Below are positions 43,456 to 57,812 of a DNA stretch of 64,000 nt, piece by piece. The DNA is from an uncultured Oligoflexia bacterium. GTDB lineage: Bacteria > Bdellovibrionota > Bacteriovoracia > Bacteriovoracales > Bacteriovoracaceae. The stretch's first letter is position 1, and every line of letters begins with the position of its first letter. A model generated the notes under the pieces. It was given only the letters and a program-made list of their open reading frames with translations, ran no database searches and was not told where the DNA came from. The stretch covers positions 1 to 64,000 of the forward strand of contig CAJXPQ010000014.1 of assembly GCA_913058265.1 (NCBI GenBank), read 5' to 3'. A program made the position numbers and the translations under genes.

Positions 43456-44007
43456 ATGAAGAAATTTTTACCGGCCATATTCATTTCGTTAGTATTTACA
43501 TTGATGATGATATCTCAGATGCTAATTAATGGACAAGAATTGTCTGCTTCTAGGATAGAGCAAAATCGTGAGCGATTCTCCCTATATGAAGCAAAATTTC
43601 ATAAGTTTAAAGCTGTTGACACTAAAAAGAACGAAATTGAGCTTACAAAAATAGAGACACCTATCATCATTGTAAATTTTTGGGCGTCTTGGTGTGCACC
43701 ATGTATTGCAGAGTTTGCTTCAATGAATAAACTAATCCAAAAGTATCCAAGTAAAATTACAGTAGTAGGGATTAATAACGACACTGACAACCCAGCAAAA
43801 GCTGTTCTTAAGATAGAAAGAAAGTATAAATTACTATTCAATTCAGTAATTGATCCAGAGGGAAAATTCGCCGAGGACTTTAACGTATCAAAGATACCGT
43901 CATCGATAATTTACCATAAAGGAAAAGTTATAAAATTTTCTGGTAAGGAGATGGACTTTATGGACTCTGACTTTCTTGCATTAATTGAAGCGAAGTTCAC
44001 TGAGTGA
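43456..44007 (+). CDS. TlpA/ResA-like membrane-anchored thioredoxin
   Basis: A 183-aa protein with an N-terminal hydrophobic anchor (about 4-24) and a thioredoxin fold. The active site is C80-A-P-C83 in NFWASWCAPC. KIPSSIIYHKGK holds the cis-proline region. TlpA/ResA proteins reduce disulfides on the periplasmic side, often to ready apocytochrome c for haem attachment. It lies about 2-3 kb from the cytochrome genes, so a role in their maturation is possible (inference). GGAG-like TACGGAG lies upstream. Confidence 0.85.
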   Translation: MKKFLPAIFISLVFTLMMISQMLINGQELSASRIEQNRERFSLYEAKFHKFKAVDTKKNEIELTKIETPIIIVNFWASWCAPCIAEFASMNKLIQKYPSKITVVGINNDTDNPAKAVLKIERKYKLLFNSVIDPEGKFAEDFNVSKIPSSIIYHKGKVIKFSGKEMDFMDSDFLALIEAKFTE

Positions 44008-44079: not shown

Positions 44080-45306
44080 CTACTTATTTTTCGTATTATT
44101 TTTAATAGAAAAATTTCTTCCCCAAGAGTATGTTATCTCATCAACAGTATCACACTGAAAAATTGAAAATCTCGGAGATAAACCTGGAATAAGAGCTCCT
44201 TGGTTTTGGAGTCCTAGGGCATGACTTGCATTTAGGGTGATAGCACACCAAAGCTCGGTTAGGTTTATTTGCAAAGACTTTGCAGATATAGAAGCAACAA
44301 GCAGAAGGTTATCACAGTGAGAAGAGCCTGGGTTGTAATCTGATGCTAGTGCTACCTTGCATCCACCATCCAAAAAGGCTCTTGCATCGGCCAGTGGTTT
44401 ACCAAGAAAAAATGCAGTACCAGGCAATAGAGTTGCAACGGTCTGTGATTTGCTTAAGGCTTGAACTCCATCTGCAGTTGTGCAAAGAAGGTGATCTGCA
44501 GAAACGGCATTGTACTTTGATGCTAGAACGGCACCCTTATTATCATTAAACTCATCAGCATGAATTTTGATTTTAATGCCCAACTCTGACGTTCGTTGAA
44601 AAAGATATTCAGAATCAGAATAGTCAAAATATCCTTCCTCATGAAAAATATCGACAAAATCTATAACCTTATCTGAAGCAAACTCATTTAGAAGTGGCAT
44701 TACTATCTTATCTAAATAATCTCGTGAGTTCTTAAAACCACCGGGAACAGCATGGGCGGCCAAGTAAGTGTTAAGTATTCTTATATCTGGAGCAAAGTGT
44801 TTTTTGAGACGATCAATAACATTAGTGATTTTTCTTTCACTTTCTAGTGTAAGCCCGTAGCCACTTTTAATTTCAATCGTACCAACACCATATGAGTTAA
44901 TGCGCTCAATTCTTTGAACGGCATCGTTAAATAAAGAATCTGCCGAGGCGGTGATTGTTTTCTCCATTGTAGCTAAAATACCACCACCACTATTTGCTAT
45001 GTCTTGATAGTCAGCACCGTTTAGTCTCATAGAGTATTCTTTGGCCCTATTTCCACCAAAAACCAAATGGGTATGTGAGTCAACAATCTCGGGGAGTAAA
45101 ACTTTTCCTGAGCAATCAACCGTTTGAATGTTTTTATATTCCTTTGGAATTGAGTTTGAATTCCCAACCCAAAGAATCTTTTCGTCATCAAAAATAATGG
45201 CACCATTTTTAATTAGTGATAAGTCTTCGGGGAGTAGGCTTCGCCCATCTTTCTTGTGGGCCTTACTTAGAGTGATAATTTCATTGAAGTTTTGATAGCA
45301 TTTCAT
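44080..45306 (-). CDS. hutI: Imidazolonepropionase
   Basis: A 408-aa zinc hydrolase, the third enzyme of histidine degradation, converting imidazolonepropionate to formiminoglutamate. The metal-binding motif VDSHTHLVFGGNRAKEY, the substrate segment SGGGILAT, KIHADEF and the late SDYNPGS are family signatures. hutH is 11 kb away on the same strand. hutU and hutG are not in the window. Confidence 0.95.
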   Translation of the reverse strand: MKCYQNFNEIITLSKAHKKDGRSLLPEDLSLIKNGAIIFDDEKILWVGNSNSIPKEYKNIQTVDCSGKVLLPEIVDSHTHLVFGGNRAKEYSMRLNGADYQDIANSGGGILATMEKTITASADSLFNDAVQRIERINSYGVGTIEIKSGYGLTLESERKITNVIDRLKKHFAPDIRILNTYLAAHAVPGGFKNSRDYLDKIVMPLLNEFASDKVIDFVDIFHEEGYFDYSDSEYLFQRTSELGIKIKIHADEFNDNKGAVLASKYNAVSADHLLCTTADGVQALSKSQTVATLLPGTAFFLGKPLADARAFLDGGCKVALASDYNPGSSHCDNLLLVASISAKSLQINLTELWCAITLNASHALGLQNQGALIPGLSPRFSIFQCDTVDEITYSWGRNFSIKNNTKNK

Positions 45307-45308
45307 AA

Positions 45309-46364
45309 TTAATAATTTATAGCCGTGTTGAGGGAAAAGGTACTTTGAGTGCCGTATCTTCCAAGTTTAACCTGTAGTTCAAAAAGTGATAATTCATGGC
45401 CAGCTGTGAGTACGTAGCCAAAGCTAGTTTTCTTCATTTCATCAATAGAGAAACCGTCAGGTTCTGTGTATAAAGCAGATTTATATAAAACTGAAGCACT
45501 AATACCTAACCTGGTTTTATCATTATCGGGCTTCCAGAAGTATCCAAACTCGCTAATAAAGCCAGCGATTGGAACACCAGATTGCTTGTAGCTTTTTGAT
45601 CCGCCTTGGCTTTTCACCGTACTGTTGCCAGAGTAAACACAACCAGAGGCTTCATATCCTCTAAAAGCATTGGTGAGTCGAAGGCCACCGCCATAGCATA
45701 TAGAGGCATTATTAGAGAGAACTTCAATTTCTTCTGATGTCGTATCACTTGAAAGAATAAAGCTATCTTGATGTAAGAGACGACCACCATAGACAAAAAA
45801 TTCATAGCGATTTTTTTGTAATTCTAAGTTTTGTTCTTTGGTCACAATGAGATCTAGGATTTCATTACAAGTGTCACTGAAGTCTACGTCATTACATATT
45901 TTTAAATAGCGCTTTGTTTTACTTAGTAATGCGGGAGTATTCTTTTTAAGATAAAGTTTATAATATGCCAAACCCATGAAGTAATAAGCTTGCTTTAGAA
46001 TTTTGGGAATATTGTCTTCATCAATTTCATCTTTTTTAAGCGCTTTTAAAGTGAGTATGTGAGGTTTAATATACTTCTTTTTAATCATTAGATTGAAAAA
46101 GGTTATAGATCTACGATATTTTTTAAGCTTAAAATAGTTTTGCCCGGAAAGATAATATGCGATTGTTGGGGTCTTTCTAAGATTTTTGAAATTATATTTT
46201 TTTTGTAGAAGTTGGTTGCTCTTGGTGAATTGTTTATTTTTATGAAGTTTCGCAGCTGATTGTATGACAGATGATGATCTCTTGGACCTCTTCTTAGAAG
46301 ATGATTGTGATAAAGCGTATTGCGAAAAGCAAAGAGTAAATATTAAGAATAGTTTTAAAGCCAT
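45309..46364 (-). CDS. TPR-containing outer-membrane protein
   Basis: From the ATG at 46364 (MALKLFLIFTLCFSQYALSQ, signal cut near LSQ-SS) the protein has 351 aa. The longer ATG at 46391 adds nine residues in front of the signal. Residues about 30-180 are helical repeats (NKQFTKSNQLLQKKY, YFKLKKYRRSITFFN). The last 150 residues are beta-rich and end in an aromatic (NTAINY), as in outer-membrane barrels. It overlaps the end of the upstream heme-barrel gene by 10 nt, so they are probably expressed together. The function is unknown. Confidence 0.7.
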   Translation of the reverse strand: MALKLFLIFTLCFSQYALSQSSSKKRSKRSSSVIQSAAKLHKNKQFTKSNQLLQKKYNFKNLRKTPTIAYYLSGQNYFKLKKYRRSITFFNLMIKKKYIKPHILTLKALKKDEIDEDNIPKILKQAYYFMGLAYYKLYLKKNTPALLSKTKRYLKICNDVDFSDTCNEILDLIVTKEQNLELQKNRYEFFVYGGRLLHQDSFILSSDTTSEEIEVLSNNASICYGGGLRLTNAFRGYEASGCVYSGNSTVKSQGGSKSYKQSGVPIAGFISEFGYFWKPDNDKTRLGISASVLYKSALYTEPDGFSIDEMKKTSFGYVLTAGHELSLFELQVKLGRYGTQSTFSLNTAINY

Positions 46365-47500
46365 AGGTGTACTTGCCCCATAAAACTCCAAGTATCATCA
46401 GTAATACTGTTCGAATCATAAACTTTGGTGTTTTTAAATTCACCACGAAACTCTAATCTTTGCATTGGGAACCAGTTAATACCTGGCGCCAAGGAATGTA
46501 CTTCATTTGAGGTCGATATATCAGATGTTTTTTGATCGTAGGTCATCATAAAGTATAGACCGCGTCTAAGGTATATAAAGTTCTGTAAAAATATAAATTG
46601 GCTTGTGTTTGCCGTGCCATCAGTTTTAAGTTTAGAATCAGATAAACCATATTCGAATAGAATACTCGAGCCCTTTCCAATTCCAGCTTTAGCAAGAATA
46701 GATTTATCTTGGAATTTTTGTCCGGATTCAAGCTTCTCTTCTTCAGACTTGAACGAAATACCAGCTTTAATTCTATCAGTGACTAAATATTCAAACTTCG
46801 TCGAGAACCCTGAGCTTCTTTCATCCTCATCTCTTTGTTGATCACCAATGAAGTATTGTAGACCAAGATCAAAGTTTTCAGTATTAATGTGAACTAGTGC
46901 TGCGTGAGTTGCATCATAAATACCATTCTTTGTTAGCTTTCTTGCAGGGGACTCATGATCAGCAGAGCGAATACCAAACACCTTGTCCATTTTACCAAGA
47001 TAAATCCCCACTTTTTCTGTAGGACGATAGCCAATATAGTGTTCTCGAGAATAAGTATCATTATCTTTAAGTTGTCTTCTCTCAGTTGGAAGAGTTCCAT
47101 ATGTTACTGTGGCAGTAAATTGCTTTCTGGATCCGAATTGAGATGATAGCGAGAAATCATTCTGCATTTTAATTTCCATTTGAGATTCGTCTTTTTCACC
47201 ATAATTAGAAATAAAGTTTAGCTGTCTATAATCGTATGAAGGAGAAATAGGCCATGAGCTAGGATTATTAAAAAAGAAACTAGAACGTTCACCTAGAGTT
47301 TCATCTGTAACCGAGTCAGGGATAAAAAGCCTACCTGCTATTGCTACTGCAGAAACACCTCGACCATAGTCATTTAACGGACCATTACCAAATGGATTAT
47401 AATGACATGTAAGGCATTTGGTATAACCCTTACCTATGAACTGCGGATATGAGAAAGCGTTAGGGCTAAGTAGAGTAAATAAAACAATCAATTTAAACAT
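46355..47500 (-). CDS. Outer-membrane beta-barrel protein with an N-terminal c-type heme motif
   Basis: A 381-aa protein with a signal peptide (residues 1-17, NAFS-YP). One CxxCH (C29-H33, CLTCHYNPFGNGPLNDYGRG) lies at the mature N-terminus. A long run of alternating beta-strand sequence follows (for example SKFEYLVTDRIKAGISF), ending in MGQVHLWL, typical of porin-like barrels. A heme at the barrel mouth would suit transfer of electrons across the outer membrane (inference). It is divergent from the cytochrome operon at 47647. The GPLNDYGR segment recalls other bacterial barrel proteins that start with one heme motif. Confidence 0.78.
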   Translation of the reverse strand: MFKLIVLFTLLSPNAFSYPQFIGKGYTKCLTCHYNPFGNGPLNDYGRGVSAVAIAGRLFIPDSVTDETLGERSSFFFNNPSSWPISPSYDYRQLNFISNYGEKDESQMEIKMQNDFSLSSQFGSRKQFTATVTYGTLPTERRQLKDNDTYSREHYIGYRPTEKVGIYLGKMDKVFGIRSADHESPARKLTKNGIYDATHAALVHINTENFDLGLQYFIGDQQRDEDERSSGFSTKFEYLVTDRIKAGISFKSEEEKLESGQKFQDKSILAKAGIGKGSSILFEYGLSDSKLKTDGTANTSQFIFLQNFIYLRRGLYFMMTYDQKTSDISTSNEVHSLAPGINWFPMQRLEFRGEFKNTKVYDSNSITDDTWSFMGQVHLWL

Positions 47501-47646
47501 GCAGATATTCTAAGAAAAACTTTTAACAATGCCAAATGCTTAAAATCATTTAAAAATAAAAAAGCAAAGCACATTTGTCTAGTACTAATATATTGCAGCT
47601 AAGTTCCCGATAAGTAAGCGTCGACAATATAAAGAGCGGAGCTCAT

Positions 47647-49080
47647 ATGAATAGTAAATTACTGACCTTAATACTTATCCTGACCAGCTTAACTGCTTAT
47701 GGAGGGAATGAGAGGGAGCAATCGAAGCGATTATATTCCTCGCTCACAGGTGGGACTGCCAATAAAGCAATTGCTGATAAGTACGAGGCAAAACTAATAA
47801 GTGATGGCCCATTAGCTGCAGCAGAGGAAATCATAGAAAGTGGACAGGGGTTTTACTCTGCGACACTAAGAAATTTTTTCTCTCCAACTACAAATGAAAA
47901 CGGGTCACAATTTGTAGATTTTAACGATATGACAGCAACACTTATTGGAATGACTAGAGACTCAGATGGAACTACGGTCTATCCAGGTACATCTACGAAA
48001 ATTAGATTTTTTGACGTTTTTTATAAAAATATTATGTATCAGTATGATGCAAGAGATTTATCTGGAAGAGATAGTACTGCATTTACACTCGTTCGAGAGG
48101 ATGTCTCTAAAAGCAGTGGATGGGAAATGCCAGTTCGGTTTTGTGCAAGTTCTTTTATAAAGCCTGGTGCTGAAGCGGTATCTGCCAATTGTATTTCAAG
48201 AGAATATGCTCGAGATGAGTTTAAAGCTCGCGACCACATTTATTTTCCAGAATACGGAGTTGCTGTCCCTGAATACAATAGAACAAAGAACTATCATCAC
48301 AAAAAGCTTCAAGAATTTAACTTACCCTATAATCGAAAAGACCTTTTTGTTAATAGAGGACAAGTTCCTTATACAACAATATATGACGATGCTGTTGCGG
48401 GAGTTTTTTCAACAAGAGCTTTTGCCGTTGCTTATTATAAAGGTGGGACAAACAGAACACCATTTAAATTTTTCGCAAGAAATTTTTTGTGTCTAGAGAT
48501 GGAGCAGCTTAATGATACTTCAATCCCAGATGTTTATGTTAGGCGTGACGTTGATCGTAAGCCAGGTGAAGTAACGGATACATTTAAAAATTCATGTGTT
48601 GGTTGTCATGCAGGTCAAGATCCAATCGCAAATGCATTCTCATATTATGACTACGATGGGGAGACAATTGATGAAGGAACAATGGTATATCGTGATCATA
48701 AAGTTATGATTGATGGCTCAGAAGAAATTGTTGATGGTGTAGCCCCAAAAATTAATTTAAATAATATCTATTCTCAAGGAAGACCGGTTGTGAACAATAG
48801 CTGGATTAACCTTTGGAATCGAGGACAAAATAAATATATTGAGTGGGGTAGTGAAAGTTCTGGTAACGGAGCAAAGTCCCTTGGAAAAATGTTATCTGAA
48901 ACAAAACAAGTTAGAAAGTGTATGGCCAATAAAGTCTTTGAGTCTGTTTGTTATAAAAAAGCAGTGTCTGAGCTTGATAAAGAAGTTGTTAGTCAATATG
49001 CCAATGACTTTGATAAGGATGCAAATTTAAAGAAGTTATTTGCGAAAATAGCAGTATATTGCATGGGGAGTAACGCATGA
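47647..49080 (+). CDS. Exported monoheme c-type cytochrome, DUF1585-like end
   Basis: A 477-aa protein with a signal peptide (TAYG-GN). One heme motif is at C317-H321 (CVGCHAG). The tail (SLGKMLSETKQVRKCMANKVF, then LDKEVVSQYANDF) resembles the DUF1585 region of planctomycete-type (PSCyt) cytochromes by pattern, not by search. It opens a (+) operon and overlaps the next gene by 4 nt (ATGA). GGAG precedes the ATG. The redox partner and substrate are unknown. Confidence 0.72.
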   Translation: MNSKLLTLILILTSLTAYGGNEREQSKRLYSSLTGGTANKAIADKYEAKLISDGPLAAAEEIIESGQGFYSATLRNFFSPTTNENGSQFVDFNDMTATLIGMTRDSDGTTVYPGTSTKIRFFDVFYKNIMYQYDARDLSGRDSTAFTLVREDVSKSSGWEMPVRFCASSFIKPGAEAVSANCISREYARDEFKARDHIYFPEYGVAVPEYNRTKNYHHKKLQEFNLPYNRKDLFVNRGQVPYTTIYDDAVAGVFSTRAFAVAYYKGGTNRTPFKFFARNFLCLEMEQLNDTSIPDVYVRRDVDRKPGEVTDTFKNSCVGCHAGQDPIANAFSYYDYDGETIDEGTMVYRDHKVMIDGSEEIVDGVAPKINLNNIYSQGRPVVNNSWINLWNRGQNKYIEWGSESSGNGAKSLGKMLSETKQVRKCMANKVFESVCYKKAVSELDKEVVSQYANDFDKDANLKKLFAKIAVYCMGSNA

Positions 49081-49676
49081 TAAAGGTTCTTAGTTTTACA
49101 CTTATAGTTCTTTCACTTACATCATGTATAGAGCCTGAAGGAGCAGTTGAGGCCACAAAAAAAGAAGATATTAAAACTGAAGGTGGACTCTTTAAACGTA
49201 GTGCAAGCGGTGGTGTCGCGGCTAAAAATTTCACACAAATAAACTTAACATATTCCAATCTTACGAAGGTACCGACATATAATGAATCCGTCTTAGCTGA
49301 ATATAAAGCAATCGAATTGCAGCTTCCAGCATCTACAGACCCAGAATCATTAAATGGCTTTAACCAGTTATCTTCTACGAGACTTGCTTTTGCATATTGC
49401 GATGTTTTTTTAGATAAAGGTGAAGTGTATGGAATGTTTAGTTCTAATTCAGCAGATGTAAATTCAAAAGTGATGATCAACCTTTTCGCCGACTTAGACT
49501 TTGATAATAATGAAGCACATCAGGAGTTTAAATCTCATGTGGTCGAAATTTTGAATAATCGAGGAATAGACTCTACAGGAACAAATGTTCAATTAATCCA
49601 AGTATCAAATAAAAAAAGCTTATTAAAACTAGGTTGTGCAGCGGTACTATCAAGCTCATACCTAACATTAATATAG
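49077..49676 (+). CDS. Lipoprotein of unknown function in the cytochrome operon
   Basis: A 199-aa protein with a lipobox LTSC (cysteine at residue 17: SLTSCIEPEG). The mature part has no recognised domain. It includes a pair of internal cysteines (YCDVF and GCAAV) that could form a disulfide. It overlaps the upstream cytochrome by 4 nt and is 11 nt before the Tat-exported gene. It may be an accessory or anchoring factor of the complex. Confidence 0.7.
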   Translation: MIKVLSFTLIVLSLTSCIEPEGAVEATKKEDIKTEGGLFKRSASGGVAAKNFTQINLTYSNLTKVPTYNESVLAEYKAIELQLPASTDPESLNGFNQLSSTRLAFAYCDVFLDKGEVYGMFSSNSADVNSKVMINLFADLDFDNNEAHQEFKSHVVEILNNRGIDSTGTNVQLIQVSNKKSLLKLGCAAVLSSSYLTLI

Positions 49677-49687
49677 AGGAATAAGAT

Positions 49688-51265
49688 ATGTGTGCAAAAA
49701 AAACATTAACACCACTAGAGCAAGTACTCGCAAAAGGTCATAAACTTCCAAAAACGAGAAGAGAGTTTATTTCACATGGTCTTGTCAGTGGAGTCAGTAC
49801 TGTTGCGATGCCTTCAATTTTAACGATGATCGCGCGTTCAAATAATGCCTTTGCCGAAGAGCTTGCCTGTAAGACAGGTTCAACATTTGAAGCAGGTCTA
49901 CCCTATATTTGTATCGATGTTGGCGGCGGATGTAATATCGCTGGACAGAATGCCATCGTTTCAATGACAAAAGGTAGCAAGTTTCAAGAAGATGCTGCAA
50001 GTAGAGTTAAAACCGATTTTATTCGCCTCGGTATTACACCAGAGGAAGCTCCAGTCGGAGCAAACTATAGTACAAAAGTAGAAACAAAATACGGATTACA
50101 TTTTCATAGGGCCTCTGGAATCTTAGATGGCATGAGATCTGTTTTAGAACCAGCTGGTGCAGAGTTAACTGTAGGTGAAAAAGAGATACCAATATCAAAC
50201 TGTATCGACGGTTTAGTTTTTTGTACGCGAACAGATGATGACAGTGCAACAAACCCTATAAATACTGTCTACCAAGCAAATCTTGGTGGCGCTAAGGGAC
50301 AACTTGTTGAACTCGTGGGGACAAATACCACACTGACAGGTGCTAGGTCTGCCGCCGTAGCAAGCCAAATTGATACAAAACTGAGGCCTACGGCAATAAG
50401 AAGTTTTGATAATGCAAGGGGCTTATTAAGTTTAGGACCTAAATTATCATCAAATGAGTACCTTAATCAAAGCACTGAAAAAATCAAAGCTTTTATGAAT
50501 AGAGTTGCAATGATGAATACAGCGAAAGTGGATGAATTAAAAAATAAAGGATCTATTGGTCAACTTGAAACAGTTCTCAAGTGTTCAAGTCAAGAAGCGA
50601 GAAAGCTATTTGAAAAGTTCTCAAGTGCCGAACTCGATCCAGGAACAGACATAACAATAACAAATAATTTTACAAACGAATCTCAAGGTGCAGTTGCAAA
50701 ACTTGTCCTTGATAATATTGCTGGCGCCGGAACAATAAATCTTGGTGGCGGGGATTACCATGGTGGAAGTGCTATGGGCACACATGCAACTGATAGAAGA
50801 ACTGGCGAACTTATTGGAAGGCTGATTAAAACGGCCTCTGAGAAATCTAAAAACATGGTTATTCATTTGTACACTGATGGTGGTGTTGCAGGAGATGCCG
50901 GGGGACTGGCCGAAGCCGTAACTATTCCTGGTCAAGGTGATGTTCCTAAGGTCCGTTGGACCGGCGATTCTGGAACAAGATCAGCAGCATTAATGATTGT
51001 TTACAAGCATGAAAATGAAGACGGATCTCTTGTTAAAGAAACTGATGGTAAAGGAGAAAGACAAGTTGGCGGATTTGTGCCTGCGGGTGGAGTTGATTTA
51101 AGTACTACAATTGGAGATAGCACACAAAACCTTTGGAAAGCTATAATGATTAATTATTTAGCATTGCAGGGAAAGAACGTTGAGGAAGAATTTTCAAAAT
51201 CATTTAAAGGTGAAGAGCTTCCAAATAATTGGGAAGAACTCATTAGGTTTAAGGCAATAGCATAA
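49688..51265 (+). CDS. Tat-exported DUF1501-like protein
   Basis: A 525-aa protein. The N-terminus KTRREFISHGLVSG (RR at 24-25) is a twin-arginine signal, so it is exported folded. The rest resembles DUF1501 (a sulfatase-fold relative) only distantly. GGGDYHGGSAMGTHATDRR parallels the DUF1501 GGWDTH segment, and RWTGDSGTRSAALMIVY parallels the GTDHG-like end segment. Family knowledge: DUF1501 proteins are typically paired with PSCyt cytochromes, as here. AGGAA precedes the ATG. Ligands and activity are unknown. Confidence 0.68.
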   Translation: MCAKKTLTPLEQVLAKGHKLPKTRREFISHGLVSGVSTVAMPSILTMIARSNNAFAEELACKTGSTFEAGLPYICIDVGGGCNIAGQNAIVSMTKGSKFQEDAASRVKTDFIRLGITPEEAPVGANYSTKVETKYGLHFHRASGILDGMRSVLEPAGAELTVGEKEIPISNCIDGLVFCTRTDDDSATNPINTVYQANLGGAKGQLVELVGTNTTLTGARSAAVASQIDTKLRPTAIRSFDNARGLLSLGPKLSSNEYLNQSTEKIKAFMNRVAMMNTAKVDELKNKGSIGQLETVLKCSSQEARKLFEKFSSAELDPGTDITITNNFTNESQGAVAKLVLDNIAGAGTINLGGGDYHGGSAMGTHATDRRTGELIGRLIKTASEKSKNMVIHLYTDGGVAGDAGGLAEAVTIPGQGDVPKVRWTGDSGTRSAALMIVYKHENEDGSLVKETDGKGERQVGGFVPAGGVDLSTTIGDSTQNLWKAIMINYLALQGKNVEEEFSKSFKGEELPNNWEELIRFKAIA

Positions 51266-51267
51266 CT

Positions 51268-54200
51268 ATGAAGATTTTAAAAAACTATTTATTACTGTGT
51301 TTTGTATTACTCATTACATTTTCATGTAGTGAGAAAGTCGAAATGTCAGAGATGGAGTTTGAAGACAATAATATAATAAGTAGTGCTAATAAGGCTCAGT
51401 CCTTACAAGCATATAAAGATACCGTTTATCCGATTGTAAGAAAAAATTGTATTGAGTGTCATGGGGATGGCGGAAGTAGAGTAAATTTTGCCTCAAGTGA
51501 CCCACAAAAAGGTCATGACCTCTTAGTGAACTCAGGAAAGGTAAATCTAAGTTTATCCTCCCAATCAAGATTATACTTAAGATTAAAGAGCGATCGACAC
51601 GAGTGTTGGGATAACTGTGATGAAAATGCCGAAGAAATGCTGGCTGCAATAAAGTCTTGGCTAGCAAATATTTACAAAGAAAATACAGGAATTGAAACTG
51701 GAAATGTATACTTTAAAGATGGACTAAGAAAGAGTTCTAAAATGGTAAGAGGATCAATAGTTCTTGAAGCCGAAGAAGCAGTTCTATTAAATAAATCTGG
51801 AAATACAATTCCTGACAATGATTTTTTACAAGGTAGATACCTAGTAAACCATAATAGTGAAAATAACAAAGACTCTTATGCCTCGGGGTTAAGGTATGTG
51901 TCAGGGTATTTGCCTACTAACCATCCTTTTGAAGATACGCCGAGAGGAAACTTTATACTTGGTGGTGATAATAATAGTCTCGCATGTCAAAGTGTTTCTG
52001 AAGGTTTGAGTATTACAAATAATACTCAAGGTCGTGTTCTTACAGTTGAAGGAAACAGACACCCAGACCAGGACGGACATAGACCATATGGTGTGTCCGT
52101 CAGGTACGAATATATACGTCCAGATAAAAGAGTTGAATACAAAACTTTATTAACATCCAATCCATCAGAAATTGAGCCAGCTTTACTAAGGATAGAAGAC
52201 TTTTTTATTATAACCGGTGAATTAGATGACGGCATGTATGATGGTAACCCTTTAGGTTCTGTTAATATGTTTATGCTATTACCAGACTATAAATCAGCAA
52301 GTGAATATGGTCGAGACGTGAGAGAGAATGGTTCAGAATATTCTAAAAATTTCTTTGCACCAAGATTTGGTGACCCGGCCACAAACTACTTTAGACCAAA
52401 AAATAATGAACTGCGATCAAACCTAGTCACATCTCAAAAGGAGCTTGTGTACAATCGTGTTGTCCCAGGCTTAAGAAGCTTGGTATTGGAACAAGATGGC
52501 ACACCAAAGAAACCGTCTGACGTTCTAGAGATGATACGTAATATGGATTTTCCTGGAAAGGGCAGTCGTAAATATCAACTATCTCAAGGGCAAAGTCGAT
52601 TGGCACTACAATCGCTTGCTGACGACTATGTAGATTTCTTTTTAAGTGGAATGACAAAAGATAATGTTTTAGATTATGTTGTTATATACTCAGATGCCAA
52701 TTCAAGAATGGTTTATCCAAACATTACAAACAATGGAACAGGCAATGTTGATCTTAGAGTAGATTTTGTAGCGTTGGATAACTCTTCAATATTTTCTTCG
52801 TCAGATGTTGATTACAGAAAAATAGCAACTAAGCACTACGGCAGTACAGTACATAAAATACAAAGGGCCAATGTCTGTATAAATTGTCACAGTGGTGCAG
52901 GTCCTGGGCCCGGTCACTCTAATCCAGATGTGGACCAAGCGTATAATCTAGCTGTACAACATATAAATCTTGTAAGCCCATTGGCTTCTAACTTTTATGA
53001 TAGAATGAAAAACGGAAGACATAATTGTGGCTCAAATGCTCAGTGTGATAAAATTGCAGATGACTTTGCAAATGAAATAGCAAAAATGAACTCCCTTGTA
53101 GCTACAGAATACGCTGCAGCACTGGCAAATCCTACGTTTATTCATACAAACCTTAGTCCTAGTGAAAGATCACCAGGAAGAATAAGGCTACCATTTACAG
53201 TTGTTGAAGCTGGAGATTACTCTCTATGGACAAGAACACGAAATGATGGAAACTTTAGAGTAAGACTTTTAGATGAGCAAGGTCGCGGAATTCAAAGATG
53301 TCGTGCAGACGATCTAGATTGTAAATATCCCGATGAGAGAGGTTACTCAGATTCAGCATCTTGTATTGACTGGAATAAACCCGACTCAGATAGCTGGGAA
53401 TGGTATACTGAAAATTATGATAATCCATCCGCAAGAATGGTTTGGAGAATTAAGCCTGGCAAATACACTATTGAAATAATTGAGTCTGAAGTTGGAAATG
53501 TACTACCTCAAATAGATCTTGTGGCATTCAGTAAAGACAATTTATTTGACCCAAGTACAAATATTTCTGATGAAGCCTTGGTACAATCCATTGATCCAAG
53601 AGAACTTAAATATGATTTAACAGAAATTCTTGGTGAAGAGGCATATTTCTCTGTAGAAGTTGATCGCTTTGGTGGTGACTCTTATCGCTTTAGAAATCCA
53701 AGAGTCATCGGGAATAAATCGAATGTTATTGTTTCTGGCATTTCAGTTTCAATAAGTGACGTTTATTCTAAAACAAACACAAGTTATGCTGATATTGACT
53801 TTATAGCTGGAACTGAGGGTGAACCGATAACCAATTCGAGTCTTTTGGCGCAAGAAATTTTTGGACCTGAGCAAGACTTCTTTAAGTTCTCATTTGAACT
53901 TATTAAAACTTCTTCTGGCGCTGAGAGTAATATTCCTAAAGAAGATCTTACACCTTTCAATAATCGTGAGTGTAAACATTTAGATCAATTTGAGAAGACA
54001 ATTTTTCCTATCTTAACTCAATTTAAACTCGTTTATCGTCATGAAGATGATGGAGACAATACATACAATTTCTATAGAATGCCAGGCAGCGGTAGGGCCG
54101 ATGCTACAAGTATGCAATTCTTTACATGTACTTCTTGTCATAATGAAGATCACCCATACTTTAAGATGACGACATTCTTTGAAAGAAATCAAGATGGATC

Positions 54201-54963
54201 ATTAAAAACTGAGAGCATTAAGAAACTTTGTTCACAGGCATTAAGTCGTGTTAAGTTTGATTCACCCGCGACATCACTTCTGTTAAGAGGGTTCGAAGGT
54301 AAGGCCAATCATAAGCGTTTACATATTGTTCAAGAGGCTACACCGACTAAGAGTGGTAACTACTATACTGGATATCAGGGTAAAACAAATTCAGTGGATG
54401 GCTATAAATCTGTATGGCGTGGTATGAGATTTCAAAAATACACAGCAGCGGACCTAAACTTATCAGCTTATTCGGGGTCTAATAGGGCATACCTTGAAAA
54501 ATTTGAGGGACTGTATAAGATTTATCGTTACAATAGAGTTAATGATCCAGCGGCGGTAGATAGCGACGGCAGAACAAGTATTAATGGTGATATTATGGTG
54601 CAGGGAGATGATGCAGGATTCACAACTTCAGTGAATATTGATGGTGTGTCAAATCATATATATCCTGAAGATAATACTCGAAATAAATACTATGTCTTTG
54701 ATCCGAGAAGTGAACTTTCAAAAAGTGCTGAGGATAGATTTAATCCAGCAAGGACTGTCTCTACTGATATGAATGCAAATAATAATAAAATTTTAATGGC
54801 GGATGGTTGTCAAAATACAAGAATGGCAATTGTAGATGGTGTAACAAGAGATCCATGTTTTGGTAATGCCGATGCTGATAAAGAGTTTGACGAGGTAAAG
54901 AATTCATACCGAGATGTAATTCTTAACTGGATAAACAGAGAGAAAGCCTCTGGCGGATATTAA
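51268..54963 (+). CDS. Large triheme c-type cytochrome, probable lipoprotein
   Basis: A 1231-aa protein, the largest gene of the window. A signal ends at TFSC (C20), a weak lipobox. Three heme motifs are visible: C61-H65 (CIECHG), near 537 (CINCHSG) and near 953 (CTSCHNED). Between the second and third, GDYSLWTRTRNDGNFRVRLLD starts a beta-sandwich, carbohydrate-binding-like segment. The N-terminal heme (YPIVRKNCIECHG) matches the planctomycete-type cytochrome C start pattern. It begins 2 nt after the Tat protein gene. It ends overlapping the convergent methyltransferase gene by 4 nt, and a terminator follows inside that gene. Confidence 0.75.
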   Translation: MKILKNYLLLCFVLLITFSCSEKVEMSEMEFEDNNIISSANKAQSLQAYKDTVYPIVRKNCIECHGDGGSRVNFASSDPQKGHDLLVNSGKVNLSLSSQSRLYLRLKSDRHECWDNCDENAEEMLAAIKSWLANIYKENTGIETGNVYFKDGLRKSSKMVRGSIVLEAEEAVLLNKSGNTIPDNDFLQGRYLVNHNSENNKDSYASGLRYVSGYLPTNHPFEDTPRGNFILGGDNNSLACQSVSEGLSITNNTQGRVLTVEGNRHPDQDGHRPYGVSVRYEYIRPDKRVEYKTLLTSNPSEIEPALLRIEDFFIITGELDDGMYDGNPLGSVNMFMLLPDYKSASEYGRDVRENGSEYSKNFFAPRFGDPATNYFRPKNNELRSNLVTSQKELVYNRVVPGLRSLVLEQDGTPKKPSDVLEMIRNMDFPGKGSRKYQLSQGQSRLALQSLADDYVDFFLSGMTKDNVLDYVVIYSDANSRMVYPNITNNGTGNVDLRVDFVALDNSSIFSSSDVDYRKIATKHYGSTVHKIQRANVCINCHSGAGPGPGHSNPDVDQAYNLAVQHINLVSPLASNFYDRMKNGRHNCGSNAQCDKIADDFANEIAKMNSLVATEYAAALANPTFIHTNLSPSERSPGRIRLPFTVVEAGDYSLWTRTRNDGNFRVRLLDEQGRGIQRCRADDLDCKYPDERGYSDSASCIDWNKPDSDSWEWYTENYDNPSARMVWRIKPGKYTIEIIESEVGNVLPQIDLVAFSKDNLFDPSTNISDEALVQSIDPRELKYDLTEILGEEAYFSVEVDRFGGDSYRFRNPRVIGNKSNVIVSGISVSISDVYSKTNTSYADIDFIAGTEGEPITNSSLLAQEIFGPEQDFFKFSFELIKTSSGAESNIPKEDLTPFNNRECKHLDQFEKTIFPILTQFKLVYRHEDDGDNTYNFYRMPGSGRADATSMQFFTCTSCHNEDHPYFKMTTFFERNQDGSLKTESIKKLCSQALSRVKFDSPATSLLLRGFEGKANHKRLHIVQEATPTKSGNYYTGYQGKTNSVDGYKSVWRGMRFQKYTAADLNLSAYSGSNRAYLEKFEGLYKIYRYNRVNDPAAVDSDGRTSINGDIMVQGDDAGFTTSVNIDGVSNHIYPEDNTRNKYYVFDPRSELSKSAEDRFNPARTVSTDMNANNNKILMADGCQNTRMAIVDGVTRDPCFGNADADKEFDEVKNSYRDVILNWINREKASGGY

Positions 54964-56249
54964 GAATCTAATGAACCTTCTAAAATCATTTTATAAAATA
55001 TCCCTGCATAATGCAGGGATTCTTTTTTATTAAAATCAAACTCAAGCTCTAGTCTCTTAGCTAATTCCTCAAGAGTCATGTCACTATTAATATGTTTAAG
55101 AATTTTAGAGAATGTATTTATCTTTTGCTTGTATGCATCAAGCTTAGCAGAATAAATGATTTTTTTAGGCTCGACATTTAAGCCTTTATTAGGAATGTTC
55201 TTAAATTTTGAACACGATGTGAATAGTATTTCTTCGATTCTTTGTTGGGACTTTTGGGCAGAATATAGATATGAAACACTGCCATTCGTAGTGTTTGTAA
55301 TTTCAAATTTTGATTCAAATATATCAATGATTTCTTCTCTACAGTATTGATCAAAAATATCTTTTTTATGGAAGTTTGCAGGTCCATAAAAAGCAAGTGT
55401 TCCATTGGAAGAAAGAAATTGCGAAATAATATTAAGTGAATCAGACAAATTAAAATCAATTATATCTAAAAACCATGGTGCAATCACTAAATCAAAAGAC
55501 TTTTTTCTAAAAGGTAAATCTGGAAAAGTGCCCAATATATTTTGGTGGTTTACAATTTTTGACTCTTCATCATTCCTTAGTAAGTATTCGCGTGCTGTCT
55601 GAGTAATTGAAGATGGATGATTAGTGTATTGATATAAACGAGCATCCCTTCCAGATATAAGGTCATGAGATAGAAAGGATAGGTAGGGATTATGCTCAAA
55701 AGAAACAAAGTTAACATGAGAGTTACTTTTAGCAAGGTTATAGCTCAATCCACCAGCACCAGAGCCTAGAATTAGAACGTTTTGAACCTTTGTTGTTAAC
55801 AAGCCTTGAATATATTCTATGTACGATAGGAGCTCTTTATTCTCAGGTATCCAATCCCTAAAAACCAAATCAAAATATGAGTGTATTTGTTGTGTGTCTG
55901 GAACCGTGTCAATAGCTTGTACTTCAGTGAATATTTTAAGTCTAGAGTACATATCTTCAAGGTTTGTCTTTCTTGCCTTGAGTATAAGTTCTACTCTTTG
56001 GGCGGTTAAGGCATTGACTTCATTCTTGTTAGAATTATATATTTCATTTAATTGACTTTCTTCTAGCTTGAAGTAAGTTTGTATTTTTGATGCCCATTCT
56101 AGAAACGCTTGTTCAGGATTTTTAAATAACCATGGAATGTCATTTAATATCGGGTAGGTACTCTCATTGCATGAAAGTTCATTATTTTTTAAAGATAATT
56201 GTTCTCCAGTCTCAGGACAACATAATAGATCGTATATCTTAGAATTCAT
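54960..56249 (-). CDS. Trm112-like zinc domain plus SAM-dependent methyltransferase
   Basis: A 429-aa fusion. Residues 1-50 have the Trm112/UPF0434 pattern (LLCCPETGEQLSL...CNESTYPILNDIPWLF). A class I methyltransferase follows, with motif I LILGSGAGGLSYNLA near 158 and FEHNPYL as the acidic motif II. The C-terminal 100 residues are helical and unassigned. The ATG directly abuts the hutH stop (TAAATG), so translation is coupled. Substrate is unknown. A role linked to histidine metabolism is only a positional guess. Confidence 0.8.
   Translation of the reverse strand: MNSKIYDLLCCPETGEQLSLKNNELSCNESTYPILNDIPWLFKNPEQAFLEWASKIQTYFKLEESQLNEIYNSNKNEVNALTAQRVELILKARKTNLEDMYSRLKIFTEVQAIDTVPDTQQIHSYFDLVFRDWIPENKELLSYIEYIQGLLTTKVQNVLILGSGAGGLSYNLAKSNSHVNFVSFEHNPYLSFLSHDLISGRDARLYQYTNHPSSITQTAREYLLRNDEESKIVNHQNILGTFPDLPFRKKSFDLVIAPWFLDIIDFNLSDSLNIISQFLSSNGTLAFYGPANFHKKDIFDQYCREEIIDIFESKFEITNTTNGSVSYLYSAQKSQQRIEEILFTSCSKFKNIPNKGLNVEPKKIIYSAKLDAYKQKINTFSKILKHINSDMTLEELAKRLELEFDFNKKESLHYAGIFYKMILEGSLDS
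55000..55028 (+). terminator. Terminator of the cytochrome operon embedded in the methyltransferase gene
   Basis: A perfect 10-bp inverted repeat ATCCCTGCAT/ATGCAGGGAT (55000-55009 and 55011-55020) followed by TCTTTTTT (55021-55028). It acts on plus-strand transcripts and lies 37 nt downstream of the large cytochrome stop, within the opposite-strand coding sequence. Confidence 0.85.
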
Positions 56250-57812
56250 TTAAAGCAGACTTCCAATTTCGTCTTCAACAACATCTAATATTTCAAAGTT
56301 AGATATCAGCTTTGTAATATTCTCGATATCTTTACTGAAAACTCTATCTTGATCAATGGTTTTAACATGTTGCCTTACAAGGTTATATACAGCTTCTAGG
56401 GCCTTATTGGATTTAAGAGGTCTAAGGAGATCAAGTCCTTGAGTGTTACAAAGAAACTCAATCGCCAAACAGTATTTAACATTTCTGACGACTTCGTGAA
56501 GTTTTCTACCAGAGGTCACGCCCATAGATACATGGTCTTCCTTGTCTGTAGAGGTTGGAATTGAGTCAACAGATGCTGGGTGCGAGAGATACTTATTTTC
56601 TGAGGCAAGAGCGGCCATCGTTACATGGGCAATCATTAGGCCAGAGTTGAGTCCAGATTCCTTAACTAAAAATGCAGGTAGTCCTGAGAATGTTGGATTC
56701 ATCATTTTTTCAACGCGTCTTTCAGATATACTTGCAACTTCACTCATTCCAATCGTTAGGTAGTCCATGCACATTGCAACTGCTTCCCCATGAAAGTTTC
56801 CACCAGAAATAACTTTTTTCTTATCCACAAAAATAAGAGGATTATCAGTCACAGAGTTAATCTCAACAGATAAGACTTCTTCTGCATGTTTTAATGTTTG
56901 TCTTATGGCTCCCTGAACTTGAGGTGAACACCTTAAAGAATAAGGGTCTTGTACCTTTCCACAGTCTATATGTGAGTCAGCAACTTCACTTTTTCCAGCA
57001 AGGAGATTTGTTAAATTTTTTGAAACAGCAATTTGCCCTGGAAGTGGCTTTAAAAGAGAAATATCAATATCAAAGGCAAGCTTTGTTCCTCGTACAGCTT
57101 CAAGGGTTAGTGCGGTCGCAATATCGACCATTTTAACAATCCGTTTTGATTCATAAAGAGCTAGTGAACCTAGTGCTGCCATTACAGCAGTTCCATTTAT
57201 AAGGGCCAAACCATCTTTTGCCTTTAGTTGTACTGGCTTCTTTCCAATTTGATCAATTGCAAAGTCAGACTTTACAACCTTACCGTCAAAAACAACATCT
57301 CCTTCACCAATTAAAGCAAGGGCTATATGTGATAGAGGAGCTAGATCACCAGAGGCACCAACAGATCCTTTTTCAGGAACAACCGGAATAATGTCGTGAT
57401 TAATAAAATCAAGTAAGAGTTCAATACACTCAATGCTTACACCAGAGTAACCAGAGCAAAGGCAGTTTGCTCTTAATAACATAACAGCTCTCGTTGTTAA
57501 TTTTGGAAATGGGCTACCAACTCCAGTACAATGAGAGCGAATAAGGTTATATTGTAATTGTGATAAGTCTTCCTCATCAATGAATTTATCTGAAAGTGCA
57601 CCAAATCCAGTATTTATACCGTAAACAGGATCACCTTTGGCAACAAGTTCATCAACGTAGGCCCTTGCAGCTAATATTTTTTTTCTTGAGTCATCAGTAA
57701 AAGATACTTTAATATCCCCAAGCTTTGCGACTGAAATTTCATAAATACTTTCGATTGTAAGGTTTGTACCATCGATTTTATATTCTTTTGCATTTGTAAG
57801 ATCAATTTTCAT
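56250..57812 (-). CDS. hutH: Histidine ammonia-lyase
   Basis: A 520-aa enzyme that removes ammonia from histidine to give urocanate. The MIO cofactor-forming triad is A153-S154-G155 in GSVGASGDLAPLSH. INTGFGALS and FHGEAVAMCMD are further family motifs. It lies between rpe and a methyltransferase gene, and hutI is 11 kb downstream. No hutU is present. AAGGAA precedes the ATG. Confidence 0.96.
   Translation of the reverse strand: MKIDLTNAKEYKIDGTNLTIESIYEISVAKLGDIKVSFTDDSRKKILAARAYVDELVAKGDPVYGINTGFGALSDKFIDEEDLSQLQYNLIRSHCTGVGSPFPKLTTRAVMLLRANCLCSGYSGVSIECIELLLDFINHDIIPVVPEKGSVGASGDLAPLSHIALALIGEGDVVFDGKVVKSDFAIDQIGKKPVQLKAKDGLALINGTAVMAALGSLALYESKRIVKMVDIATALTLEAVRGTKLAFDIDISLLKPLPGQIAVSKNLTNLLAGKSEVADSHIDCGKVQDPYSLRCSPQVQGAIRQTLKHAEEVLSVEINSVTDNPLIFVDKKKVISGGNFHGEAVAMCMDYLTIGMSEVASISERRVEKMMNPTFSGLPAFLVKESGLNSGLMIAHVTMAALASENKYLSHPASVDSIPTSTDKEDHVSMGVTSGRKLHEVVRNVKYCLAIEFLCNTQGLDLLRPLKSNKALEAVYNLVRQHVKTIDQDRVFSKDIENITKLISNFEILDVVEDEIGSLL

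Follow-up and report, generated by a model that had tools for sequence, protein, structure and literature searches.

A candidate envelope redox module with a predicted heme-bearing porin and a DUF1501-like protein in an uncultured member of the Bacteriovoracaceae

What could be the role of six adjacent genes which encode a heme-bearing barrel, a second barrel-like protein, two cytochromes, a lipoprotein and a protein exported by twin-arginine translocation (Tat)? The question is raised by positions 45,309 to 54,963 of a 64,000-nucleotide stretch of DNA (the window; assembly GCA_913058265.1, contig CAJXPQ010000014.1, positions 1 to 64,000) from an uncultured Oligoflexia bacterium of the family Bacteriovoracaceae, phylum Bdellovibrionota. 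A first-pass annotation, made from the sequence alone, had described it as a cell-surface cytochrome island. Our analysis revealed that the set of cytochrome, lipoprotein, Tat-protein and heme-barrel genes is a real conserved module: its heme motifs are conserved, profile matches exist, and its genes are strongly linked across the phylum, so that none of the outcomes named in the first-pass annotation as refuting it occurred. The heme-bearing barrel (HEMB) is predicted to resemble the outer-membrane cytochrome-porin Cyc2, and we tentatively propose, as a possibility we hold to be rather doubtful still, that the HEMB proteins form a new family of heme-porins similar to Cyc2, which occurs phylum-wide and serves as a shared outer-membrane electron port for two alternative modules of the PSCyt/DUF1501 type.

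Gene cluster, linkage and distribution

The layout suggested by the first-pass annotation, a minus-strand pair of barrel genes facing a plus-strand operon, was recovered, with two open reading frames (ORFs) on the minus strand, four on the plus strand and 146 base pairs (bp) between the two groups:

45309..46391, minus strand: TPRB, partner of HEMB, with a signal peptide, a repeat-like N-terminal part and a beta-rich C-terminal part
46355..47500, minus strand: HEMB, 381 amino acids (aa), predicted fused monoheme cytochrome-porin of Cyc2-like architecture (AlphaFold2 (AF2) model, Foldseek, heme-flank comparison)
47402..47416, minus strand: HEMB heme site CLTCH, aa 29-33, in YPQFIGKGYTKCLTCHYNPFGNGPLNDYGR, kept in 19/19 relatives
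47501..47646, no strand: divergent intergenic region, 146 bp, by sequence layout
47647..49080, plus strand: CYT1, periplasmic monoheme cytochrome of a divergent PSCyt3 type (DUF1549/DUF1588/DUF1585-related)
48595..48609, plus strand: CYT1 heme site CVGCH, aa 317-321; C317, C320 and H321 invariant in 30/30 relatives
49077..49676, plus strand: LIPO, small predicted lipoprotein, Cys17 invariant
49688..51265, plus strand: TAT, twin-arginine exported protein of predicted alkaline-phosphatase type, probable distant relative of DUF1501
49757..49762, plus strand: TAT twin-arginine codons R24 R25, kept in 32/32 relatives
50753..50761, plus strand: TAT D356-Y-H358 (GGxDYH); D and H invariant in 32/32 relatives, aligning with DUF1501 GGWDTH
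51268..54963, plus strand: CYT3, triheme predicted lipoprotein cytochrome, 1231 aa, lipobox Cys20
51448..51462, plus strand: CYT3 heme 1, CIECH, aa 61-65, the conserved one, invariant in 18/18 relatives
52876..52890, plus strand: CYT3 heme 2, CINCH, aa 537-541, within an apparent second copy of the heme-1 module
54127..54141, plus strand: CYT3 heme 3, CTSCH, aa 954-958, a sequence motif

Of the 291 genomes sampled from the phylum, 174 contain HEMB, 119 contain TAT and 98 contain the two together (Fisher odds ratio 5.9, p = 3e-11); in the family of the window genome, HEMB is present in each of the 42 genomes that have TAT. The two genes tend to be neighbors, HEMB lying no more than 12 kilobases (kb) from TAT in 45 of 73 genomes with both, where random placement over the listed coordinates would give 0.7. 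The same 12-kb limit places HEMB close to a Pfam DUF1501 match in 10/28 genomes, against an expectation of 0.24, and in no genome was it near TAT and DUF1501 together. Bdellovibrio-like genomes (L149, L151-L157) contain such a sister module, in which a HEMB-TPRB pair is accompanied by a CYT1-like monoheme protein, a Tat-exported DUF1501 protein of ~560 aa and two further proteins, one of ~236 aa and one, monoheme, of ~340 aa; one pair was checked by Pfam. These loci were chosen because their coordinates looked adjacent, and the 12-kb counts are the less biased measure. Based on the linkage and the loci read, members of the TAT family hold the same kind of position beside HEMB as bona fide DUF1501 proteins do, so that the two alternative modules have one predicted outer-membrane partner, HEMB, in common. 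This neighborhood supports the view that TAT works like DUF1501, and ties the heme-porin to modules of the PSCyt/DUF1501 type.

The six proteins contain exactly five CxxCH sites (HEMB 1, CYT1 1, CYT3 3), in agreement with the "at least five" of the first-pass annotation, while residue-shuffled proteins averaged 0.0095 sites, with no more than 1 in any of the 2000 trials; no CxxCH was present in any other window ORF of at least 90 aa kept in the CxxCH scan. The sites of HEMB and CYT1 and the first site of CYT3 are invariant, as listed above, and HEMB and CYT1 have just one site each in every aligned relative. CYT3 relatives carry from 1 to 5 sites in total, hemes 2 and 3 are not universal, and most relatives have short CYT3 forms with 1-2 hemes. 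The lipobox cysteines, LIPO C17 and CYT3 C20, are invariant among the aligned relatives.

The gene order CYT1-LIPO-TAT-CYT3 occurs in nearly every locus read. In the window these genes are tightly packed (a 4-bp overlap, then gaps of 11 bp and 2 bp); several relatives share the divergent arrangement of minus and plus genes, and the region between them presumably holds the promoters of both groups. TPRB homologs adjoin HEMB in 33 loci. The TPR part of the TPR-barrel label given to this protein by the first-pass annotation found no firm match, all TPR hits in Pfam being below the cut-off (best E 0.13); the beta-rich C-terminal part probably forms a small outer-membrane barrel. Natural fusions were found between CYT1 and LIPO (L114), between LIPO and a CYT3-type heme domain (L038, L054, L085, L086), and between an LspA-type protein and HEMB (L050, L097, L098). 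Distance matrices are correlated with that of TAT (CYT1 r 0.92, LIPO 0.91, CYT3 0.88, HEMB 0.78; 0/500 Mantel permutations as high for each), as would be the case for genes passed on as one unit, although shared descent by itself yields such values too and Mantel tests cannot tell it from co-evolution.

Many relatives (L041, L042, L044, L046, L047, L049 and others) encode an LspA-family protein of ~280 aa with a C-terminal extension within the module or next to it, either after CYT3 or beside HEMB; 10/10 of these proteins match Peptidase_A8, and none is encoded in the window's cluster. One locus (L033, genome G039) has two CYT1-LIPO-TAT-CYT3 sets near each other on the same contig, one near the window type and one divergent. 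The window's own genome has a second HEMB-TPRB pair (L147; contig C3, ~122.4-125.6 kb) with no TAT or CYT1 beside it, which diverges from genes for a 124-aa monoheme lipoprotein-like protein and a 294-aa diheme protein with a Haem_bd domain.

TAT homologs were found in 35/98 relatives by a search with a single protein, and the 119 genomes with a TAT match in the profile search represent 66 of the 162 genera sampled, with members of the Bdellovibrio-like family among them. The named carriers in the family of the window genome (f1) are for the most part genomes from metagenomes, with titles of Bacteriovoracaceae, Halobacteriovorax or Oligoflexia, while many single-contig genomes with TAT belong to another family (f6), probably the Bdellovibrionaceae. 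A scan of genome contigs with the single TAT protein as query gave no match; with an 11-row TAT alignment it returned 27 named loci, nearly all with titles of the Bacteriovoracia/Oligoflexia type and some just of proteobacteria or Deltaproteobacteria. Neither TAT nor HEMB was found on plasmids. The spread is patchy, as complete genomes of the same family (G005, G051, G013) are without TAT; the module is therefore an accessory one rather than a general set of genes for predation.

HEMB and its resemblance to Cyc2

Cyc2 is an outer-membrane Fe(II) oxidase, a fused monoheme cytochrome-porin with one N-terminal heme and a 16-stranded porin (PMC8406198). The AF2 model of HEMB comprises a mostly helical N-terminal segment with the heme motif, followed by 16 strands (predicted local distance difference test (pLDDT) 60.5, predicted template modeling score (pTM) 0.59), and has Foldseek matches to porins at E 1e-7, with chitoporin first and general porins as the majority. 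The heme-bearing barrel of the first-pass annotation is thus upheld as a predicted 16-stranded porin with an N-terminal CLTCH; that annotation had missed the Cyc2-type architecture, i.e., an N-terminal monoheme segment joined to such a porin. As modeled, HEMB is built like Cyc2 and, by analogy, may work like it.

For the comparison of heme regions, seven Cyc2-type loci were fetched from plasmids with a bait peptide composed from the published motif and general features of the family, and six of their proteins were used. The region reads AYPNFIGxGYxxCLTCHYNPxGNGPLNDYGR in HEMB and AVPSFARQTGxxCxxCH...PELTxYGR in Cyc2. Proline at -10 combined with [LI][NTS]x[YF]GR after the heme was present at 36/40 HEMB sites, 6/6 Cyc2 sites and 0/300 other heme sites in the loci; however, these patterns were picked after viewing both families, the 300 null sites are largely interrelated, and the Cyc2 proteins had themselves been fetched by the heme-flank region. 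With CxxCH left in, profile alignment of the cytochrome domains (hhalign) gave 75% over 47 columns with a score of 47, column-shuffled controls reaching at most 18.8. The published definition of Cyc2 includes the motif AXPXFAR[Q/K][T/Y] ahead of CxxCH (PMC8406198); most HEMB proteins have an AXPXF-like start, but AR[Q/K][T/Y] occurs in 0/19, with IGxG or similar there. HEMB therefore lacks one defining Cyc2 feature; both its heme flanks look similar to those of Cyc2, and any common ancestry is conjectural. Homology of the two barrels, considered separately, was not detected (1.5%).

The Tat-exported protein, the cytochromes and the surrounding genes

Searches of Pfam, NCBIfam and PDB sequences with TAT gave nothing usable. 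The window protein does not reach the gathering score of PF07394, its own genome is without a match, and one of 32 relatives matches at E 0.051. Profile-profile comparison related TAT to the DUF1501 set of the phylum at 95.7% over 341 columns (signal included), other control families being below 1% except HXXSHH/DUF1552, which aligned in the Tat signal alone. In a signal-free profile alignment, the invariant GGxDYH of TAT is placed on the DUF1501 motif GGWDTH. An assignment of TAT to DUF1552/HXXSHH was rejected, the likeness being confined to the Tat signal.

The AF2 model of TAT (pLDDT 71.9, pTM 0.76) retrieved nearly exclusively members of the alkaline phosphatase superfamily among the top 50 Foldseek matches (phosphatases, sulfatases including carrageenan sulfatase, EptC, nucleotide pyrophosphatase, phosphoglycerate mutase), with a best E of 3.8e-4 and a core of ~125-135 residues at 3.3-5.3 A (probability 0.75-0.99). 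The predicted core fold is that of the alkaline phosphatase superfamily, which we take to be the Pfam clan of DUF1501; since whole-length TM-scores are low, TAT can be assigned to the superfamily level. Of the candidate metal ligands, D356, H358 and D397 are invariant and D427 is nearly so; by inspection, the classical metal-binding His residues are partly non-conserved. Judged by profiles and the model, TAT appears to be a very distant DUF1501 relative, DUF1501-like but no member of that family. The earlier label of a Tat-exported DUF1501-like protein thus holds for the twin arginine (32/32) and for a remote likeness in profile and fold, but not as a Pfam DUF1501 match.

The PSCyt3 match of the window's CYT1 is below threshold (E 0.067, 13.9 bits vs the Pfam cut-off of 27). 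Among the 30 family members, DUF1585 is matched by 10 (best 1.5e-5), DUF1588 by 7 (4.6e-4) and DUF1549 by 3 (0.001), while the CYT1-LIPO fusion reaches 25.6 bits vs a cut-off of 25.8. Aligned with hhalign to the DUF1588-DUF1585 proteins of the phylum, CYT1 scored 96.9% over 294 columns spanning the heme site and the C-terminal domain, and unrelated control families scored at most 16%. Because of the family's Pfam matches and this profile alignment, CYT1 is regarded as a divergent PSCyt3-type cytochrome that falls short of Pfam's formal cut-offs. The hidden Markov model search proposed in the first-pass annotation thus left DUF1501 unmatched, and brought DUF1585/DUF1588 matches in the CYT1 family with a sub-threshold window protein. 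The view that DUF1501 with PSCyt cytochromes is mainly planctomycete was not borne out, as bona fide DUF1588 + DUF1552, DUF1800 + DUF1501 and PSCyt-like + DUF1501 pairs occur in this phylum. LIPO as a split-off DUF1587/1592 piece was rejected, with profile support of just 0.8%. Pfam and PDB profile searches of CYT3 revealed no carbohydrate-binding or glycoside-active domain.

The module is flanked by a HutI-like amidohydrolase gene (44080-45306, minus strand) and a HutH-like gene (56250-57812, minus strand; ASGDLAPLSH motif), so that the surroundings look like a histidine-utilization region with the module inserted; the Hut names are by resemblance, the amidohydrolase match alone having been checked. 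A methyltransferase-like gene (54960-56249, minus strand; CARME E 2.5e-9) is convergent to CYT3, its stop overlapping the CYT3 end by 4 bp. A TlpA/ResA-like thioredoxin (43456-44007, plus strand; AhpC-TSA E 4e-16), encoded 1.3 kb beyond TPRB, is possibly tied to heme attachment or disulfide control. Genes for TatC and for a protein of the c-type cytochrome assembly family are present in the genome, so the bacterium has the means for export as well as for the attachment of heme.

Possible roles and known systems

We put slightly below an even chance the reading that the six genes form one envelope redox module, in which HEMB would be the port, TAT would handle the substrate, and CYT1 and CYT3 would be the electron partners. 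HEMB would be an outer-membrane porin with its periplasmic mouth plugged by its own monoheme segment, as in Cyc2, and its one heme would suffice to carry electrons from a small solute inside the pore to the periplasm, or the other way. Soluble periplasmic CYT1 and the lipoprotein cytochrome CYT3, together with LIPO, might swap electrons with HEMB and TAT; TAT, exported folded, would fill the place of DUF1501 in the sister modules and may be the substrate-binding or catalytic subunit. We infer complex formation, the route and direction of the electrons, the substrate and the side of the outer membrane on which the lipoproteins reside; the HEMB barrel and the TAT fold are model predictions.

Several results weigh against this reading, beyond the restrictions on the heme-flank counts and Mantel tests given above. 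HEMB occurs without TAT in 76 genomes and TAT without HEMB in 21, i.e., the port is not obligatory. Confidence in the HEMB model is modest, as its pTM indicates, and the profile link between HEMB and Cyc2 is gone when CxxCH is masked. On the TAT side, cutting the Tat signal lowers the DUF1501 comparison to 34% over 299 collinear columns (best control 0.6%), comparison with the ~560-aa DUF1501 subgroup gave no link (0.3%), and DUF1501 motifs are missing, with TDGG for SEFGRT and DSG for GxDHG, although DxH is kept and invariant. Finally, typical relatives total 3-4 hemes, so there is no multiheme wire.

The last point bears most directly on a conduit of the Mtr/Mto type through the outer membrane, for which a barrel, cytochromes and lipoproteins are all present; with 1 heme per barrel, 16 strands instead of 26 and few hemes in most clusters (PMC8406198), it is the most improbable of the explanations and can hardly be expected. 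We consider it unlikely, yet worth more attention than the other alternatives, that the cluster encodes a redox enzyme acting on polymers, in which TAT would bind or cleave an anionic or sulfated glycan, CYT1 and CYT3 would accept the electrons of its oxidation, and HEMB would admit or release fragments. PSCyt genes elsewhere bear carbohydrate-binding modules and adjoin sulfatases and glycan enzymes (PMC5615132), DUF1501-DUF1800 genes adjoin a bacterial chitin synthase (PMC5122149), and the phosphatases and sulfatases retrieved by the TAT model, with carrageenan sulfatase among them, fit such an activity, as does the chitoporin heading the otherwise mostly general porin matches of HEMB. Nevertheless, the domains expected for glycan binding or cleavage were not detected in CYT3 by the searches described above, no recurrent glycan gene was apparent beside the loci read, and the classical metal-binding His set of TAT, by inspection, is incomplete.

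The LspA-family genes in and beside the modules of many relatives, with three fusions to HEMB, suggest a role in envelope assembly or lipoprotein maturation, where the LspA paralog would process LIPO and CYT3, TAT would modify them or escort them to the outer membrane, and the hemes would be structural or sensory. This is quite improbable in our view, as the window's cluster lacks the LspA gene, the sole other match in the genome being 20 kb off with no hemes around, and a processing enzyme near unusual lipoproteins is expected anyway. An imported, ordinary planctomycete-type PSCyt/DUF1501 island, with the minus-strand barrels as unrelated neighbors, would account for the kinship of CYT1 to PSCyt3 and the remote one of TAT to DUF1501; it is very improbable, since TAT is a separate family without a Pfam match, so far known from this phylum only, and the linkage to HEMB is far beyond chance.

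To our knowledge, genes of the PSCyt and DUF1501/DUF1552 types are common, and no function has been settled for them since their description in Rhodopirellula. If HEMB is indeed a shared electron port for such modules, PSCyt/DUF1501 proteins would take part in the exchange of electrons across the outer membrane, and this in a lineage best known for predation; single-heme cytochrome-porins would then extend beyond the known iron oxidizers. With a DUF1501-like module tied to a heme-bearing porin, the redox activity of HEMB and its exchange with a PSCyt protein become testable; the module set is carried by Bdellovibrio-like single-contig genomes, so a laboratory strain is probably usable. No description of such systems in the phylum was found in the open-access literature, preprints excluded, and no Pfam entry matches the TAT family, LIPO, HEMB or their combination.

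Each half of the module resembles a known kind, one the PSCyt/DUF1501 modules and the other the heme-porins of the Cyc2 type. As in the PSCyt2/PSCyt3 + DUF1501 or HXXSHH (DUF1552) pairs of Planctomycetes and Verrucomicrobia (PMC5615132), a DUF1588/DUF1585-related heme protein is combined with a Tat-exported protein, and TAT resembles DUF1501 in predicted fold and motif order; unlike these pairs, CYT1 is shorter and below the Pfam thresholds, there are two additional subunits, LIPO and CYT3, TAT forms its own family, and HEMB-TPRB is attached. The DUF1800 + DUF1501 pair (PMC5122149; L150) also consists of a Tat-exported DUF1501 with a partner gene, and in L150 a HEMB-TPRB pair lies ~5-7 kb away, but DUF1800 is no heme protein and L150 is without a TAT-family protein. 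The alkaline phosphatase superfamily has in common with TAT the predicted core fold, Asp at strand ends and the D356/H358 pair, while the His metal ligands of TAT are incomplete. The Mtr/Mto/Pio porin-multiheme complexes likewise combine a porin with cytochromes at the outer membrane, with far more hemes, a larger barrel and no single fused heme. Like Cyc2, HEMB has a signal peptide, a single N-terminal CxxCH, a predicted 16-stranded porin, more than 365 aa, P exactly 10 residues ahead of the heme and xL[TN]xYGR after it, and genes of both have a c-type cytochrome gene nearby. It differs from Cyc2 in having FIGxG where FAR[Q/K][T/Y] defines that family and GPLNDYGR where Cyc2 has PxL, in its occurrence in Bdellovibrionota with TPRB, PSCyt3-like and DUF1501-like genes as neighbors, and in a barrel without detectable homology.

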